Under the pieces are notes generated by a model. The model worked only from the letters and a program-made list of their open reading frames with translations, was not told where the DNA came from and searched no databases. The position numbers were made by a program, and so were the translations under genes. DNA of 64,000 bases from a virus: positions 62,001-126,000 of IMG/VR virus record IMGVR_UViG_3300043409_000928; one strand, given 5' to 3'. This document shows, one piece after another, positions 2,449-48,864 of the stretch. Position 1 is the stretch's first letter; every line of letters begins with the position of its first letter.

Positions 2449-3249
2449 TTACACTCTTATTAGAACTTTGTCAAGGGTGCCTGCGTTCGATTGGCTGTCG
2501 AGTCTTGCCACTCGTAACCAACGCACACCAGCATAATAGTTGTATGGATCTATACCAGTGAAACCAGCTAGGTCTAATTTAGCGGTGGTATAATCCTGTG
2601 GCTTCAGATCTGCCCATAATGTAGATCCAACTACCACATCGTCCAAGGTACCTTGTATAATTATACGACCAGTATAATTTGAAGCATAAATTGCCATCGA
2701 AAACAAACTGGTATCTTTTCTGTAAAACTGTGGCCCGTTGAATGCGCTAGATATCAAAATATTATTACCAGTATTGGTCCAAGTTGTTATTTCTGCACTT
2801 GAACGGCTGGTTGGTATAACTTCATCTTTGACTTCAATATCAAAGCCGGCTTGCATTGCTCTATTCCAAGTTAATGCTGTTTCTAAACCATCACCATCTA
2901 CAAAGGTAGCACCTAATTTATAAATGCCACTTGGCAATGTCATCAGGTCCCTGGGTTGTACTACTAGACGAGCTTGTCCGTTTTCTGCAACAGTGGGAAT
3001 TGATCGTCTACGGAAAATAGTAGTTCCTGTGTCACGATTCCACATTGTGATTGTTAGCTCTCTACGAAGCAAACTAACTGGTCTACGGTCGCTTCCAGTT
3101 ACGGTAATGTCTAATATATTGTCTACTCCTTTAAACCAAACAATCCGTTGATCGGTATAACCGGGTGCATGTCTTGTTGTGCTTGGACCCGTGCCTGCAC
3201 CGGCGTAGTTTAGGGTAGCTGAAGGGATAGATGAGTTAAGTGTCGCCAT
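2449..3249 (-). CDS. Putative virion structural protein, unknown
   Basis: A 266-residue protein with many beta-strand-like segments. Its beginning (MATLNSSIPSATLNYAG) looks like a virion protein. It has no catalytic motif and I do not recognise the family. The frame is open further upstream, but I chose the ATG at 3249 because a late-type octamer GCTAAATA sits just upstream (3255-3262) with exactly 5 nt between it and the ATG. A longer protein would read back through that promoter and antisense to the divergent gene at 3281. The late promoter supports a structural role. Its position in front of primase and helicase is unusual. Confidence 0.6.
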   Translation of the reverse strand: MATLNSSIPSATLNYAGAGTGPSTTRHAPGYTDQRIVWFKGVDNILDITVTGSDRRPVSLLRRELTITMWNRDTGTTIFRRRSIPTVAENGQARLVVQPRDLMTLPSGIYKLGATFVDGDGLETALTWNRAMQAGFDIEVKDEVIPTSRSSAEITTWTNTGNNILISSAFNGPQFYRKDTSLFSMAIYASNYTGRIIIQGTLDDVVVGSTLWADLKPQDYTTAKLDLAGFTGIDPYNYYAGVRWLRVARLDSQSNAGTLDKVLIRV

Positions 3250-21000: not shown

Positions 21001-21852
21001 TTAACCCAGTAACTTGTTTAGTGCGTTGTCTAATTCTGCTACTGCTTCGCTGACCAGGCTATTGTCAACTGTATCTGTATTTGGTAAAGCGTATTCGTTG
21101 ATGTCGGTTAGGTCACCTGTGCGAGCGGCTCTCTCCATCATTCTGCGAAGCATTATTACTTCGTTTCTACCTCGTTCACGAATTTGATTTACTTGTGCGG
21201 TTTCGCCAAGCTTTTTAGACCAGCGTAACAATTCCATAATTTCTTTACGGCGTCTGCTGATCTCAAGAATCTTTTCACCTGCATTGTCCCACGGCTTGCC
21301 ACCTGACTCAACATGCAATGCCATTACTCTGGCGCCCAGTAAATGATTGAATGGGAAACGAAAACGCTCTCCATCTTTTTCAATAAACAGGGCCTTGATG
21401 TTACGGCTACGGGCTCCAGGCTTTTCTTCAGTTACACTTTTAGAGTGTGCCAATCTAACCTGTGTGCCACCCAATGGATGATAGCTAATTTTTAAACTGT
21501 TGCGACTTTCTATTACTTTTTCAGTTCTGTGACTCAATTGCTTGGGCTTGATTTCGCCGTCATAACTGCGGATAGTTGTACCGTACAAATATCTACGGGC
21601 TATAGCTTGTATTCTTGGTTTAAAATCTTCTTCTAACCAATCGGTATCAGTTTTAATAGGATCGTACCAAATTTCAATATCGGTATTCTCGTGATTGATA
21701 AAAACCATTACGCCCAATTTTGGCAAATAGTTATATACAGCGTCGTCTTGTTTTAAGGTGCTGTTACCATCTTCATCCTGAAAATTAGCATCGTGGCTAA
21801 CTCCTGCTACACTGGCAGATACTTCCCTGGCTAAGTCTTCTTTTGTTGACAT
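21001..21852 (-). CDS. Putative structural or packaging-associated protein downstream of terminase
   Basis: A 283-residue protein. The first half is a beta-rich domain with KLGVMVFINHENTDIEIWYDPIK and PRIQAIARRYLYG. The second half is charged and helical. I do not recognise the family with certainty. The start at 21852 is chosen because a late-type octamer GGTAAATA lies exactly 5 nt upstream, immediately after the terminase stop at 21866. The in-frame extension to 21915 would run through that promoter and into gp17. A virion or packaging role is inferred from the late promoter and neighbours only. Confidence 0.6.
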   Translation of the reverse strand: MSTKEDLAREVSASVAGVSHDANFQDEDGNSTLKQDDAVYNYLPKLGVMVFINHENTDIEIWYDPIKTDTDWLEEDFKPRIQAIARRYLYGTTIRSYDGEIKPKQLSHRTEKVIESRNSLKISYHPLGGTQVRLAHSKSVTEEKPGARSRNIKALFIEKDGERFRFPFNHLLGARVMALHVESGGKPWDNAGEKILEISRRRKEIMELLRWSKKLGETAQVNQIRERGRNEVIMLRRMMERAARTGDLTDINEYALPNTDTVDNSLVSEAVAELDNALNKLLG

Positions 21853-28864: not shown

Positions 28865-28872
28865 TATTTAGC
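28865..28872 (-). promoter_or_regulatory. Late-type promoter GCTAAATA of gp19
   Basis: It overlaps the gp18 stop codon on the minus strand, 19 nt upstream of the gp19 ATG, with an AGGAGA ribosome-binding site in between. Confidence 0.65.
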
Positions 28873-31252
28873 GTGTGCCGCCGGCAATCGCGCCAGTGTT
28901 GACAATCCTAACTGGAATGTAGATGAATTCTGCGGCTTTGACTGGCTCGATTGCCACATCAATGTACAGTTCATTTCTATCAATTCTAGTTGGAGTGTTA
29001 TTTGTTTCATCACAAACTACCAAGAAGTCGTATACGGCTCTCTTAGTGAATAAGTCTTGCAAAAATCCAGAAAATACTGCAATTACACGATCTCTAGTTT
29101 TCTTGTCGTTTGGTTCAAAGATGAACGGACGAGCAATAACATCAAAGCGTTCACGCAAGTACGCTAATAGTCGACCCACGTTAACACGATCTAATGCTGA
29201 ATCAAATGGGTACAATGTTTTTTGTCCCCAAATGTACAAACCTTGACCAGGGTAGTTAACCAATGGATTGATTTTCTTCAAATACAATGTATCTCGCTGG
29301 CCTTGGTTCAGTGCCACTGGAACAAATTCATTCTCGGCATTAACTAAACCTAAGTTGCTGATACCGCTCAATGAACCGCGAGTTAAACCAGCTGGGGCAA
29401 ACCATGGATAACTAACTTGGTCGTTATAAGCAATACCACGCAGAACTGCATGACTTGCTGGAACAGCAACATCGTTACCCAGTAAGTCTGTAGACAATGC
29501 GCTTGGGTAGTAAATTGCTACAGCACCATTGCGACTTGTTAAGCCATCTGCACCGTTTGTGCCTGCTTCTGTACCGTTGGCCCATGTAGTAACATCGCTC
29601 ATTTTTGCTGATAACTTCATTGGGGTATCAGCAATAACAAACGCTGTTTCTTTACGGTCCACGTTCAACGTAATCATTTCATCAATACACTCAACATAAC
29701 CTGGTGTTGCTATAATGTTAAATGTCAATGTTTCTGCACGAAGATCTTCGTTGTCTGTTAGTGCGGCTTGTAAACGCTTGACTACTACACGGCGTTGGGC
29801 CTTTTCAAACATGTAAGGGGCGCCTGCTTTAAAGCCACTGTCAACATTGCCAGACTCTGACTGCCAGTGTCCTTCTGCAACATTCCATGCTTTTACGTTG
29901 CCTGAACTTAATGCGCTGTTCCATAGAATCATACCGTCTGGATAAAACGCTGGGTTTGGAACTTGATCATCCATTGGTGTTGCACCGCCGCCAACACCAG
30001 TTGAATCTGCTAATGTTGCTGTTAAGTCAACAAACAATGCGCCATCTGGAGTAGACTGATCGGCGTTATCTTTCTGTACCCAATCGCTACCATTATACAT
30101 TTTAATTACAGGATAGTTGGCTACATCGTTAGTATCAATCCAAACATCACCATTGCTTGCAGTTGAAGGTTCTTCAGTGTTTACACTGACATTTTGAACT
30201 GCTTTCCATGTTGGTAAGCCACCAACTGTGTCTTTAACATAGATATCAACTGTGTCGCCTGCATCGTACCATAACTTACCATCAGGGATAGCACCAGTTG
30301 GAGCATTGGCTGTTGCTGATGGTGAAATTGTTACCCAGGCCGCGCCGTCGTAACGCTTGACTTCAAACTTGGCTTCGTTGTCATCTGCAAACTGTAGATA
30401 AAGATCATTAGTATTTAGAGCTGAGCCAAACGCAGTAGTTGCAGTTGCATTGTCTAGATAACCCACTAACTTGTCAACTGTATTTGGACCAATAACTTGT
30501 GCTGTCCAGCTTTGAGTTGTTGAATTGTATTTCTTTAATTTAATGTTTAATCCTGCATTAGGACTTGTTGTCTTAAACCATACGTCACCAGTAAGCGACC
30601 CTGTTGGTACTGAATAGTGAGGTGCAACAGTAACATTCTGGCTTAAATTGCCTGCTGTCACAGTTTTCCAAACGCCAGCAACTTTCTTATAAAAAGTTTT
30701 TACTGTGGCTGATGTTACATTTAGTGCGTACTGTCCATTGGAACCAACACTGGCACCTGGAACGCCATCAGTTGTTAGAACTGGTTTGACTTGCCATGCT
30801 GTACCAGTGTATTCAAAAATACCATATGTGCTTGCATCTGTATCTAACCAATATTGATTGTTGGTTGGAGGACCAAACGGAGCAGTTGCTTGTGGCTCCA
30901 ACTCTTCCATTTTTAAATCTGCTCGTACTACAATAGCACGGTTGGCGATACCTAAATAATAATAGGCGGCCAACAAGCCGTATTCGTTTAATTCGTGACC
31001 GTGTACTGGTGTACCGTCAACAATGGTGAACTCTGGTTCACCGTATAACTGTACCAACTCGCGCTGGCTAGTTAAAATAAGTGGTTTTTTGGCAAATGGT
31101 GCTGTGGTATAAGTTGCTGTTGATCCGTCTGGTGCTGTTTTGTTAGAACGAGTTGCTAACACAATGACAGGTACAGTTCCATTACCGGCGCCGGCGTAGG
31201 CACTTTCATCAATAATCGAAACGCTTACGCCTGGGGAAACTAGCTGAGCCAT
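28868..31252 (-). CDS. 18: Tail sheath protein gp18 with large inserted domain
   Basis: A 794-residue contractile sheath protein. The N-terminus (SPGVSVSIIDES) and C-terminus (LRERFDVIARPFIFEPNDKKTRDRV ... IPVRIVN, in parts) are typical of T4 gp18 (659 residues). Residues about 120-470 form an insertion made of roughly six repeats of a short beta motif (for example GDVWIDT...MYNGSDW, GKLWYDA...LPTWKAV). In gp18 such insertions face outward, so the module probably decorates the tail surface. Its leader carries a hairpin that can hide the ribosome-binding site. Confidence 0.93.
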   Translation of the reverse strand: MAQLVSPGVSVSIIDESAYAGAGNGTVPVIVLATRSNKTAPDGSTATYTTAPFAKKPLILTSQRELVQLYGEPEFTIVDGTPVHGHELNEYGLLAAYYYLGIANRAIVVRADLKMEELEPQATAPFGPPTNNQYWLDTDASTYGIFEYTGTAWQVKPVLTTDGVPGASVGSNGQYALNVTSATVKTFYKKVAGVWKTVTAGNLSQNVTVAPHYSVPTGSLTGDVWFKTTSPNAGLNIKLKKYNSTTQSWTAQVIGPNTVDKLVGYLDNATATTAFGSALNTNDLYLQFADDNEAKFEVKRYDGAAWVTISPSATANAPTGAIPDGKLWYDAGDTVDIYVKDTVGGLPTWKAVQNVSVNTEEPSTASNGDVWIDTNDVANYPVIKMYNGSDWVQKDNADQSTPDGALFVDLTATLADSTGVGGGATPMDDQVPNPAFYPDGMILWNSALSSGNVKAWNVAEGHWQSESGNVDSGFKAGAPYMFEKAQRRVVVKRLQAALTDNEDLRAETLTFNIIATPGYVECIDEMITLNVDRKETAFVIADTPMKLSAKMSDVTTWANGTEAGTNGADGLTSRNGAVAIYYPSALSTDLLGNDVAVPASHAVLRGIAYNDQVSYPWFAPAGLTRGSLSGISNLGLVNAENEFVPVALNQGQRDTLYLKKINPLVNYPGQGLYIWGQKTLYPFDSALDRVNVGRLLAYLRERFDVIARPFIFEPNDKKTRDRVIAVFSGFLQDLFTKRAVYDFLVVCDETNNTPTRIDRNELYIDVAIEPVKAAEFIYIPVRIVNTGAIAGGTR

Positions 31253-31254
31253 AT

Positions 31255-31305
31255 AATATCTCCGTTATCTAAGGGTTATTCATACCCTTCATGGAGATAT
31301 TTAGC
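31255..31305 (-). promoter_or_regulatory. gp18 late promoter nested in an RBS-masking hairpin
   Basis: The late octamer GCTAAATA is at 31298-31305. An arm AATATCTCC (31293-31301) is perfectly complementary to GGAGATATT (31255-31263), which contains the gp18 Shine-Dalgarno; a smaller stem AAGGGT/ACCCTT lies inside. Initiation about 6 nt past the octamer (near 31292) would leave out the first arm and free the ribosome-binding site. Confidence 0.65.
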
Positions 31306-31355
31306 TGATACAGTTAAAAGTGAGCCTATTTAGCGGAAGTGGTAGATTTACAGTT

Positions 31356-31976
31356 TTACTGGACAATCATTGCCAACTGTTTGTAAAGAGCATCAACTGT
31401 GCTGTTGTTGTCTACTATATAGTCAAAATTGGTTCCAACCCATGCTGTTTCACTAGCATGAATATCTGGGTATGCAATGGCCATATGGTTGAAGTTACCT
31501 CGATTTGTTTCAACCGCAACATCGTACCATTCTGGGTCTTCTCCTCGCACTACCCTGATCACTTGGCCGCCAGCATTTCTAATTGCTTTAATTTCATTGG
31601 GAAATCTACAATCTGATATTACAATATTGTCTGTGGTATTTTGTAATCTTGCTTCTAAGCTAGCAATCCAGATATCATCATGAAAGCTTTTGCGGCAGAC
31701 TTCTGTACCCCACCATTGAAGTACCCAGCGTGGGGTTAGATTTGGCATACCTAAGCGTTCTGCCCACCAAGGATCTACTTGTTCTCGCCATTCACGGGCA
31801 CTCTTAGTGCGGCCTTCAAGTAACTCGCGGTTCCATCCAAATACTGCGGCAACTGCATCTTTAAGAGTTGCGGCAAAGGAGTCTCTGCGGAACTCATAGA
31901 AGTTTACAAGATAATCTGCGGCAGTGTCCTTGCCTGAACCAATGAAACCGCAAATACCAATAATTTGTTTAGTCAT
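31356..31976 (-). CDS. 1: Deoxynucleoside monophosphate kinase gp1-like
   Basis: A 206-residue P-loop kinase with GFIGSGKDTAADYL at the N-terminus, an RTKSAREWRE segment, LQWWGTEVCRKSFHDDIWI, and VISDCRFPNE, all typical of T4 gp1 dNMP kinase (241 residues). It phosphorylates dGMP, dTMP and hydroxymethyl-dCMP in T4. Whether modified bases are made here cannot be seen in this window. It has its own early sigma-70 promoter whose -10 ends 5 nt before the ATG, although it sits among late genes. Confidence 0.9.
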   Translation of the reverse strand: MTKQIIGICGFIGSGKDTAADYLVNFYEFRRDSFAATLKDAVAAVFGWNRELLEGRTKSAREWREQVDPWWAERLGMPNLTPRWVLQWWGTEVCRKSFHDDIWIASLEARLQNTTDNIVISDCRFPNEIKAIRNAGGQVIRVVRGEDPEWYDVAVETNRGNFNHMAIAYPDIHASETAWVGTNFDYIVDNNSTVDALYKQLAMIVQ

Positions 31977-32015: not shown

Positions 32016-32642
32016 TTACTTTTCGTATTTTACCATAAAGTCGGTACAGGTTCTGTACATTTGTGGGACCAAGTTCTTTTCTTTTTCAATTAGCCTATGT
32101 AGGTCTACAAATTGCTCTGCATAGTTTACTGCTCTTAATGCATTCAAAACCAACTCTACACAACTTACATGAGTGTCATCTGCCAAGTCAAACAAGTCAT
32201 CGTACGGCTTACCCTGTTGTTTTAGTAAAGCATCAATAATTTTGGTCCACTCTGTATTGTCAATGTTATTTGGTGTCAGTAAACAAACTGAATCACAAGC
32301 AAATACTTGATCAAATGTAGAATAGTGTACACCTACCCCAGTGGCTTCTACAAACTTAAAGCTGGCAGTATCTGTTGGATCAGTGATATTATCGCAGTTC
32401 ATTAAGGCATGAGTATAGTTTGCCCATATACCAGTCTTGGCCCATGACAAGAATGAAACTATAATACTACTAAGATGGTGCTTCTCTCCTGTTAAGATAA
32501 TGTAATATCCACTGGCCAGCACTTGGGCAATTTCCGTTTTATCAGTTACCGTAACGTAGGTTTTTTTGCTCCAAGAAATTTTGCCCGGCATCATTGCTAC
32601 CCAATGGTATAGCTTGTATAATAGTGTGGAATACTTAGACAT
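32016..32642 (-). CDS. Permuted papain-like (YiiX/C92 type) amidase-like protein
   Basis: A 208-residue protein. Motifs fit a circularly permuted NlpC/P60 (papain-like) fold: an early ILTGEKHHLSSIIVSFLSW, a histidine in NYTHALMNCD, and a late cysteine in HVSCVELVLNALRAV. Enzymes of this group hydrolyse amide or thioester bonds in cell wall or lipid substrates. A lysis or cell-wall role is plausible, but no signal peptide is visible. It overlaps gp13 by one base and precedes gp1. Confidence 0.5.
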   Translation of the reverse strand: MSKYSTLLYKLYHWVAMMPGKISWSKKTYVTVTDKTEIAQVLASGYYIILTGEKHHLSSIIVSFLSWAKTGIWANYTHALMNCDNITDPTDTASFKFVEATGVGVHYSTFDQVFACDSVCLLTPNNIDNTEWTKIIDALLKQQGKPYDDLFDLADDTHVSCVELVLNALRAVNYAEQFVDLHRLIEKEKNLVPQMYRTCTDFMVKYEK

Positions 32643-33394
32643 TATCCAAAAATAAATCCCAGTGGTGTTCCACCTTCGGAATATGTTTTTAAATCTTCCT
32701 CAAGCTTTTCCATTTCTGCTTGACCTTGGGCAATTAGGTCGTTGCCGTTTAGCTGTACACCACCTTGCGGACCGGCTAATTGACTGTACTTGCTACGAGC
32801 TTGGCCAAGTGTAAGCTTAGAAACTGCAAGAGCAAATTCACGCACCCAAGGTCCGGAACTGGTGTCTAGTAACAGCATTTCATCTGGGCGATAGTTATAA
32901 GTGTGTACAATAATACTTTCTTCAGCTTTCAAATAACGCTGTAGATTTAATCTCTTGCTGGTGTTAGACCAGTTATACACCAGGTAGGCTCCAAACATTG
33001 TTGCCATTAATTCACGCTGTCCCATGTACAATTCAAAAGATGCTAGGCCACCTTGTCTGATTGAATTCAACATGTACATGTTTAAGTAGCCTGCTTCAAA
33101 GGGATCAAATCCTGTTGCACCACTACTGTCGCTCATGCCGCCGCTATTTGCACGGTATACATTTCGTACATCAATTACTTCATTTGGTAGTGTGTATTCG
33201 CTTTCTCCTGGCGTAATTTGTAACACCATAAAGCTTTCTTCTACCGCCCGACTACTACGCTGACGATATTTGGATACGGCACGATCAATTGCCATATCGT
33301 AGTGTTCTTTATCCAGCTCTACATCAACCATACCTCCGCCGAGGTTCAGTTCAATATATTTTTGAGCTTTAGATCTTTGTGTTGTTTCTGACAT
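32642..33394 (-). CDS. 13: Neck protein gp13
   Basis: A 250-residue protein matching gp13 of marine T4-like phages. It has DVELDKEHYDMAIDRAVSKYRQRSS near the start, and the C-terminal YSQLAGPQGGVQLNGNDLIAQG...LGFIFG signature. gp13 and gp14 form the neck that seals the head and joins the tail. It is followed by the amidase-like gene with a one-base overlap. Its leader carries the late promoter within a hairpin that reaches the ribosome-binding site. Confidence 0.9.
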   Translation of the reverse strand: MSETTQRSKAQKYIELNLGGGMVDVELDKEHYDMAIDRAVSKYRQRSSRAVEESFMVLQITPGESEYTLPNEVIDVRNVYRANSGGMSDSSGATGFDPFEAGYLNMYMLNSIRQGGLASFELYMGQRELMATMFGAYLVYNWSNTSKRLNLQRYLKAEESIIVHTYNYRPDEMLLLDTSSGPWVREFALAVSKLTLGQARSKYSQLAGPQGGVQLNGNDLIAQGQAEMEKLEEDLKTYSEGGTPLGFIFG

Positions 33395-33429
33395 AGGGTG
33401 TCTCCAGGACTATTTACCGAAGACACCCT
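33395..33429 (-). promoter_or_regulatory. gp13 late promoter nested in an RBS-masking hairpin
   Basis: Arms AGGGTGTCT (33421-33429) and AGACACCCT (33395-33403) flank the late octamer GGTAAATA (33411-33418). The second arm includes part of the GGAG Shine-Dalgarno and abuts the ATG at 33394. Late initiation near 33405 would exclude the first arm. Confidence 0.65.
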
Positions 33430-33436
33430 ATAAAAC

Positions 33437-34721: not shown

Positions 34722-34750
34722 ATTATAACTTATCTTTGCGAACCTGTCAA
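34722..34750 (-). promoter_or_regulatory. Perfect consensus sigma-70 promoter
   Basis: -35 TTGACA (34745-34750), a 17-nt spacer and -10 TATAAT (34722-34727), all matching the E. coli consensus. A leader of about 25-30 nt with TTGGAG precedes the ATG at 34690. Confidence 0.9.
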
Positions 34751-34763
34751 GTGACATCTAAGC

Positions 34764-34771
34764 GGTAAATA
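34764..34771 (+). promoter_or_regulatory. Late-type promoter GGTAAATA of the gp14-gp15 operon
   Basis: It lies 38 nt upstream of the gp14 ATG at 34810, and 13 nt from the divergent early promoter. A small GGCC...GGCC stem and CCAGGA lie in the leader. Confidence 0.7.
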
Positions 34772-34809: not shown

Positions 34810-35913
34810 ATGCCTAAAATATCACTTTGGAAAAACGCCAAGACGCAAGACTTTTACTTTCAGGATCGAATTATCCGTGAAGCAGTGGGTGCTGGCGGAA
34901 CTACATTTTTGGTCCATAAGTATCTTGGACCTGCGGCAGTTGAGGACGGATCTGATCCGGCCAAGCCAAATTTGTCGGCTCAAAATGAAATTACAGAATT
35001 AGACATGCAAGACTTGCTGTTTATGGAAAACCGTGATCGGGTATATGATACTTCCATTTATGAATTGCGTGGGACATATAATGTGACCGACCAGGACTTT
35101 GACTTGAGTCAGTTTGGTTTGTTTTTAAATGCCGACACGCTGTTTATTACATTCCATACAAACGAAATGGTTGATCGTTTAGGACGTAAATTGATGGCTG
35201 GTGATGTCATTGAAGTTCCGCACTTGAATGACGACTTGCTATTGGATGCTACTGCAAAAAGCATTAACAAATTTTATGCAGTCCAGGATGCTAGTCGCGC
35301 CGCAGAAGGATTTGGTCCAACTTGGTGGCCGCACTTGTGGCGTATCAAAGTTGCCCCTATTAATGATGCACAAGAGTATCGTAGTATCTTGGGTGACCCC
35401 GAAGATGCTGACAGTTTAAAAAATGCACTGAGCACTTATCAGACCGAAATTAAAATTAATAATGCAATTTTAGCCAGTGCTGAAATGATGACTCCAACAG
35501 TTGGTTATAAAAATCCAGAGCTCAATGATCCAACTTATGTTCCAACTATTAATGTTATGTCAACTGGTGGGATATCTGACAATACTGTTAACACTAGAGA
35601 GTATGCGGCATCCAAAGGTGACACTACTGGAATTGCGAACGGCTTGTCATTTCCACAAAGTCCAGATCAGGGAGAATTGTTTATTCGTATGGACTTCCGT
35701 CCACAAAGACTTTTTGTATTCCGAGGCAATCGTTGGCACAGAGTTCTTGATAATGTAGATCAGTCCAATTGGAGAATTAATACTGTTAATGCTGGCGATT
35801 TTATTGATAACAACACAGGCACATCAGTTAATAATTTAAGCACTACAAAAGACACAATTGATCAAAAGCAAGCACTGAGCAAGGTGTTTACAAAACCTAA
35901 GGCAGATAATTAA
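34810..35913 (+). CDS. 14: Neck protein gp14-like with C-terminal beta module
   Basis: A 367-residue protein. The central part (FLNADTLFITFHTNEMVDRLGRKLMAGDVIEVPHLND, in short segments, then WRIKVAPINDAQEYRSILG) follows the gp14 pattern of 'hand-off' beta strands seen in T4 gp14 (256 residues). gp14 completes the neck with gp13. The C-terminal 120 residues are extra; around 290-330 they contain GELFIRMD...RLFVFRGNRWHR, a beta motif also found in gp15, gp18 and fibres here. Its stop overlaps the gp15 start. Confidence 0.75.
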   Translation: MPKISLWKNAKTQDFYFQDRIIREAVGAGGTTFLVHKYLGPAAVEDGSDPAKPNLSAQNEITELDMQDLLFMENRDRVYDTSIYELRGTYNVTDQDFDLSQFGLFLNADTLFITFHTNEMVDRLGRKLMAGDVIEVPHLNDDLLLDATAKSINKFYAVQDASRAAEGFGPTWWPHLWRIKVAPINDAQEYRSILGDPEDADSLKNALSTYQTEIKINNAILASAEMMTPTVGYKNPELNDPTYVPTINVMSTGGISDNTVNTREYAASKGDTTGIANGLSFPQSPDQGELFIRMDFRPQRLFVFRGNRWHRVLDNVDQSNWRINTVNAGDFIDNNTGTSVNNLSTTKDTIDQKQALSKVFTKPKADN

Positions 35914-42532: not shown

Positions 42533-42544
42533 CTGAGTATATAC

Positions 42545-42597
42545 TCCCTTATGTTAGCGTATGAGTGATCGATTCATACGCTTCAGGACTATTTACC
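42545..42597 (-). promoter_or_regulatory. Late promoter and leader hairpin of the S74 fibre gene
   Basis: GGTAAATA at 42590-42597 is followed in the leader by a stem GCGTATGA/TCATACGC (about 42556-42580) and an AAGGGAG Shine-Dalgarno. That Shine-Dalgarno lies next to the palindrome GAGTATATACTC. Here the hairpin lies wholly downstream of the promoter. Confidence 0.6.
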
Positions 42598-48838: not shown

Positions 48839-48856
48839 AATAGCTCTCCTATGAAC

Positions 48857-48864
48857 TATTTACC
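48857..48864 (-). promoter_or_regulatory. Late-type promoter GGTAAATA of the holin
   Basis: It lies 18 nt upstream of the ATG at 48838. A small stem AATAGTTC/GAGCTATT places the AGGAGA ribosome-binding site in its loop. Confidence 0.65.

Follow-up and report, generated by a model that had tools for sequence, protein, structure and literature searches.

The window analysed here is a 64,000-base stretch, 62001-126000, of a virus record that is 285,304 bases long and derives from a jumbo T4-like myophage, and the analysis covered this window together with individually retrieved loci. On its minus strand lies the gene for the tail sheath, a homologue of gp18 (28868..31252, 794 aa; phrog_10581 tail sheath, E 3e-219), whose product is 41% identical to the sheath of Pseudomonas phage PA5oct and approximately 38% identical to those of RaK2/121Q/CBB-type phages. 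Adjoining its 5′ side is a dNMP kinase gene of the T4 gp1 type (31356..31976, minus strand; phrog_139, E 5e-56), and further upstream is a neck gene encoding a gp13-like head-tail adaptor (32642..33394, minus strand; phrog_211, E 4e-35). The complete order is a 417-aa gene without assigned function, which is the first of the unit, followed by neck, a 208-aa gene, dNMP kinase, sheath and then the tube gene gp19. The kinase-sheath order is the same in RaK2, CBB, 121Q and GAP32. Just beyond the window (G000:C1:126607-126954) the genome carries a gene for a gp55-like late sigma factor (phrog_234, E 3e-25). A search for the gp45 sliding clamp using phrog_223 matched nothing here, nor in the controls.

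The gp18 start codon is the ATG at 31252-31250 on the minus strand. Upstream of it, on the same strand, is a late octamer, GCTAAATA, hereafter P2 (31298..31305), in which TAAATA is invariant among 27 aligned leaders. Overlapping P2 is the 5′ arm, AATATCTCC (31293..31301), of a stem that masks the ribosome-binding site (RBS), whilst the 3′ arm, GGAGATATT (31255..31263), contains the Shine-Dalgarno (SD) sequence GGAG. The two arms form nine pairs, all of them perfect, and the original prediction of an arm that overlaps the octamer and pairs perfectly with an SD-bearing segment was exact in its coordinates. Between the arms sits an inner hairpin, AAGGGU...ACCCUU (31271..31289, minus strand), near the predicted 5′ end of the late RNA. 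An RNA reading through the leader (31320-31240) folds at -21.7 kcal/mol with the SD paired (z -3.0), a value equalled in 1/200 shuffles; when the octamer was held fixed and its flank and the spacer were shuffled, equal masking of the SD arose in 5/200. In an RNA that starts past the 5′ arm, this pairing of the SD is gone from the fold. The cost of opening the gp18 SD is 10.1 kcal/mol in the read-through RNA versus 2.8 kcal/mol in the late RNA, where the SD can instead pair weakly with the beginning of the gp18 coding sequence. Masking in a single sequence is suggestive, and it is by conservation across relatives that it goes beyond chance. Rfam gave no match within 31200-31420, and the plus-strand fold of the leader region has no apparent separate role. 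Two further candidates were rejected. A mini-ORF at the predicted late 5′ end (AUG AAG GGU AUG AAU AAC CCU UAG) is unconserved and attributable to chance, and the hairpin between kinase and sheath is not an intrinsic terminator, as it lacks a U-run and a scan found no terminator there.

The octamers of T4 late promoters precede the start by about one helical turn, their first bases being numbered -13/-12, and the late consensus of phage Aeh1 has a/gC at these positions (PMC2988020). With GC at -13/-12, GCTAAATA is of the Aeh1 variant, and at -13 to -6 of the gp18 leader it is an octamer related to TATAAATA, as expected of the T4-type late promoter that P2 is predicted to be. The distance from octamer to start was calibrated on the genome itself. 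In six instances exactly five bases separate an SSTAAATA motif from the ATG of an ORF that is 60 aa or longer, and there are zero cases at SSTAAATA-to-ATG distances of 8-12 and 14. This arrangement, which has no SD, occurs in the window at 3262-3249 and 21865-21852 (both minus strand) and at the retrieved loci L164, L166, L183 and L184. For the gene at 2449..3249 the five-base spacing is held in nearly all of 38 relatives, with variation in the five bases themselves and in the upstream sequence. The gene at 21001..21852 behaves likewise, and both match virion structural families. The simplest reading is that such virion structural genes probably give late mRNAs that are leaderless and start at octamer +13, and the true gene starts are likely 3249 and 21852 rather than the longer ORF starts 3411 and 21915. 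Carried over to gp18, the +13 rule would place the late start at A31292 (minus strand), the first base past the masking arm. The expectation that late initiation falls just after the first arm therefore agrees with the leaderless-gene calibration and, moreover, with a pyrimidine/purine at -1/+1 in 36/37 gp18 leaders.

A consensus sigma70 promoter, TTGACA-17-TATAAT (34722..34750, minus strand; 12/12 match), faces the neck-kinase-sheath genes approximately 3.4 kb upstream of gp18. It recurs at the equivalent position in 36/36 relatives, and a scan between this promoter and the sheath found no strong intergenic terminator. Given a conserved promoter and no strong terminator, transcription of the enzyme genes early in infection would continue into two late virion genes; these two, neck and sheath, both carry masks. 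The promoter at 34750 is a plausible source of early read-through into the sheath, the RNA probably arriving from the dNMP kinase gene (31356..31976), whose product would, by analogy with T4, be needed early. The gene gp19, directly 3′ of gp18 and also read through, is unmasked, so that an extra assumption is needed, for example polarity where gp18 RNA goes untranslated. We also observed a late octamer (34764-34771, plus strand) for the divergent gene at 34810, less than 50 bases from the sigma70 promoter (34750-34722, minus strand).

Conservation of the gp18 stem was assessed in 27 distinct leaders of approximately 66% identity or higher. In the outer stem 84% of cells are paired, versus at most 54% in slid controls, and three pairs show compensatory changes on both sides; variation at the pairs closest to the SD is mostly C-G/U-G. 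The inner GGG...CCC hairpin is retained in relatives L002-L059. Opening the SD costs mostly 7-13 kcal/mol in the read-through RNA of close relatives versus 0.2-6 kcal/mol in their late RNA. For individual close relatives the shuffle test is often non-significant, with counts of up to 10-50% in some, because the octamer supplies part of the arm. In a clade of 53% identity a different arm, now upstream of the octamer, still pairs with the SD, and the cost falls from read-through to late RNA from 15.9 to 2.4 kcal/mol (L068) and from 13.4 to 3.0 kcal/mol (L071), with 0/100 shuffles as good. At 38% identity the leaders of RaK2, CBB, 121Q and GAP32 are unrelated in sequence and follow the same plan of anti-SD arm, TAAATA, inner hairpin and SD; here the cost falls from 13.1 to 4.1, 14.3 to 3.2, 13.8 to 3.0 and 10.9 to 3.9 kcal/mol, respectively. 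The Atu_ph07 leader has ATATAACCCC/GGGGTTATAT at the corresponding place, that of PA5oct has a weak mask, and in the SCTP-2 gp18 leader no mask was found. Loss of complementarity in close relatives would have told against the original prediction, which also asked for covariation of the two arms. Pairing with compensatory changes persists in nearly all close relatives, down to approximately 67% protein identity; covariation is seen at gp18, and at 53% and 38% identity other sequences serve the function. A subclade (L053-L059, 65-68% identity, on contigs shared with L125-L134, including L125, L128 and L134) has kept its octamers and has no effective gp18 or neck mask, and the switch is therefore dispensable. 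In this subclade the -10 element of the upstream promoter is TATACT, not TATAAT. The joint loss of both masks fits a common function.

The neck gene carries a stronger version of the gp18 design. In its leader hairpin (33395..33434, minus strand), for which there is evidence from both folding and covariation, GGTAAATA lies in the loop and GGAGACAC, containing the SD, in the 3′ arm. In the window and in most relatives, late RNA is predicted to begin with the first G of GGAG. SD opening falls from 11.8 to 2.2 kcal/mol in the window, and from 10-19 to 0.1-2 kcal/mol in about 20 leaders, with 0/60 shuffles as good. Across 19 leaders 94.7% of the cells of the stem are paired, 20 cells are double changes and 0/500 shuffles reach this. 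A tail-fibre gene has a leader with an outer SD stem and an inner hairpin (42533..42597, minus strand; 9.0 to 3.0 kcal/mol, 1/60 shuffles), and a holin-like gene has a weaker mask with the octamer in the 5′ arm (48839..48864, minus strand; 5.4 to 0.4 kcal/mol, 2/60 shuffles), which is variable among relatives. Two genes outside the window, at L190 and L191, are also masked. At the centres of these loci (genome positions 240084 and 255357, minus strand) the late octamer lies in the loop of a stem that is followed by a U-run, such that a terminator-like hairpin, a promoter and an SD share one element; L191 is downstream of a Clp-like ATPase gene. The same SD-opening calculation found the octamer leaders of gp19, the gene at 34810, L167, L168, L185, L186 and L189 to be unmasked, and masking is therefore selective. 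Counting the window alone, masks are only modestly enriched at leaders with an octamer (Fisher p 0.02 at a cut of 5 kcal/mol; rank test p 0.17).

In T4, long early transcripts of gene e sequester the SD in a helix, and the 5′ arm lies partly in the late octamer, which leaves the late RNA without that arm; the soc, 49 and I-TevI leaders likewise sequester the SD and/or AUG in an mRNA helix (PMC3014915). The analogy to e and soc originally drawn for gp18 is accurate according to that account. Under the identical calculation it holds well for e (13.3 to 2.7 kcal/mol) and weakly for soc (2.8 to 0.5 kcal/mol), whilst gene 49 gives 9.8 to 1.5 kcal/mol. The leader of T4 gene 18 itself is unmasked (1.7 to 1.2 kcal/mol). 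That e and 49 score as masked and T4 18 does not validates the measure. As in T4 e, an SD-hiding helix forms in the folded read-through RNA of gp18 and the late octamer supplies part of the 5′ arm. Unlike e, a lysis gene, the masked gene here encodes the tail sheath and its leader contains an inner hairpin. The masks also differ from those of soc, 49 and I-TevI in the genes concerned and in having unrelated sequences. It is well supported that the gp18 leader joins the T4 gene e kind, on the strength of its arrangement rather than of any leader homology. For CBB and GAP32 a T4-like late motif, ATAAATA, has been reported in silico before structural genes, and CBB has a gp55-like sigma factor, with gp33 and gp45 undetected; the available part of that report describes no RBS-masking at these late promoters (PMC5259590), whereas we found masks at the gp18 leaders of both phages.

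We therefore consider it likely, with good though not complete confidence, that the gp18 leader acts as a translational switch linked to its late promoter. RNA reading through from the sigma70 promoter at 34750 would pass the 417-aa, neck, 208-aa and dNMP kinase genes and carry both arms; in it the AAUAUCUCC arm would pair with GGAGAUAUU, hiding the SD, and no sheath would be made early. Later the gp55-like sigma factor would initiate at P2 to give an RNA from A31292, directly past the arm. With no SD-pairing arm base left and the inner hairpin alone remaining, such an RNA should be translatable. On this model masking would reduce gp18 translation, and sheath synthesis would thus be gated by the choice of promoter.

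A second octamer of the same sequence, GCTAAATA, lies upstream of P2 (P1, 31327..31334, minus strand). The original prediction had overlooked this octamer, as well as the stronger neck-gene copy and the weak alternative pairing of the SD in the late RNA. P1 matches the late motif of this genome, and its distance from P2 is 28-30 nt in 37/37 gp18 leaders (29 nt in the window). An RNA starting at P1 would retain the masking arm, and the corresponding fold (31320-31240) is masked; if P1 is active, then not all late transcripts are open. This differs from T4 e, where both late promoters give open RNA. P1 may be a second, dose-setting late start, may serve P2 as an upstream DNA element at -42 to -35, or may be inactive. 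A broader proposal is that in this group of jumbo phages the late octamer is a general device for setting translation, through masked read-through and open late RNA (sheath, neck, fibre, holin-like), through leaderless RNA (several virion genes) and through two gp18 starts 29 nt apart that set the dose of sheath; we regard this as speculative and rather unlikely. Alternatively, masked RNA from P1 and open RNA from P2 might together set the sheath dose in the late phase, with early read-through secondary. The conservation of P1 in 37/37 gp18 leaders, its match to the late motif and the masked fold of its RNA agree with this, but P1 is absent from the gp18 leaders of RaK2, CBB, 121Q and GAP32, all of which are masked, and the neck gene is masked without a P1, making such dosing improbable as the main role.

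Stem-loops near the 5′ end can protect mRNA, and the conserved GGG...CCC hairpin would lie 3-4 nt in from the 5′ end of the late RNA. The inverted repeat could accordingly serve the late mRNA as a 5′ stabiliser or processing site, the pairing of the SD being a by-product. However, the conserved arm that pairs with the SD is absent from the late RNA because it lies upstream of the predicted start, the late RNA of the neck gene has no such hairpin, and phages at 38% identity retain the SD mask using other sequences; we judge this reading quite improbable. That the complementarity is fortuitous, arising from the AATA of the octamer and an A/U-rich SD context and shared by descent in close relatives, would suit the octamer fixing part of the arm and the high shuffle counts of some relatives, but is very improbable and already largely refuted by the compensatory changes at the gp18 and neck stems, the replacement of the arm by a different one in the 53% clade and the 38% phages, and the repetition of the design at the neck gene.

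The combination of RBS-masking and a late promoter was known beforehand from a few T4 genes. What is new is that it extends more widely to virion genes, that its sequence is replaced whilst the design is retained, and that some late genes are probably leaderless. The study also gives a precise rule for the start site, octamer start +13, and RaK2, CBB and 121Q are cultured relatives. On the reading that we prefer, a promoter-linked switch at the gp18 leader, a form of control known from T4 would extend to core virion genes of uncultured giant phages, in an arrangement that persists across distant giant phages although its sequence is replaced. Enzyme genes expressed early could thereby share a co-directional unit with late genes for structural proteins, and no structural protein would be made early.
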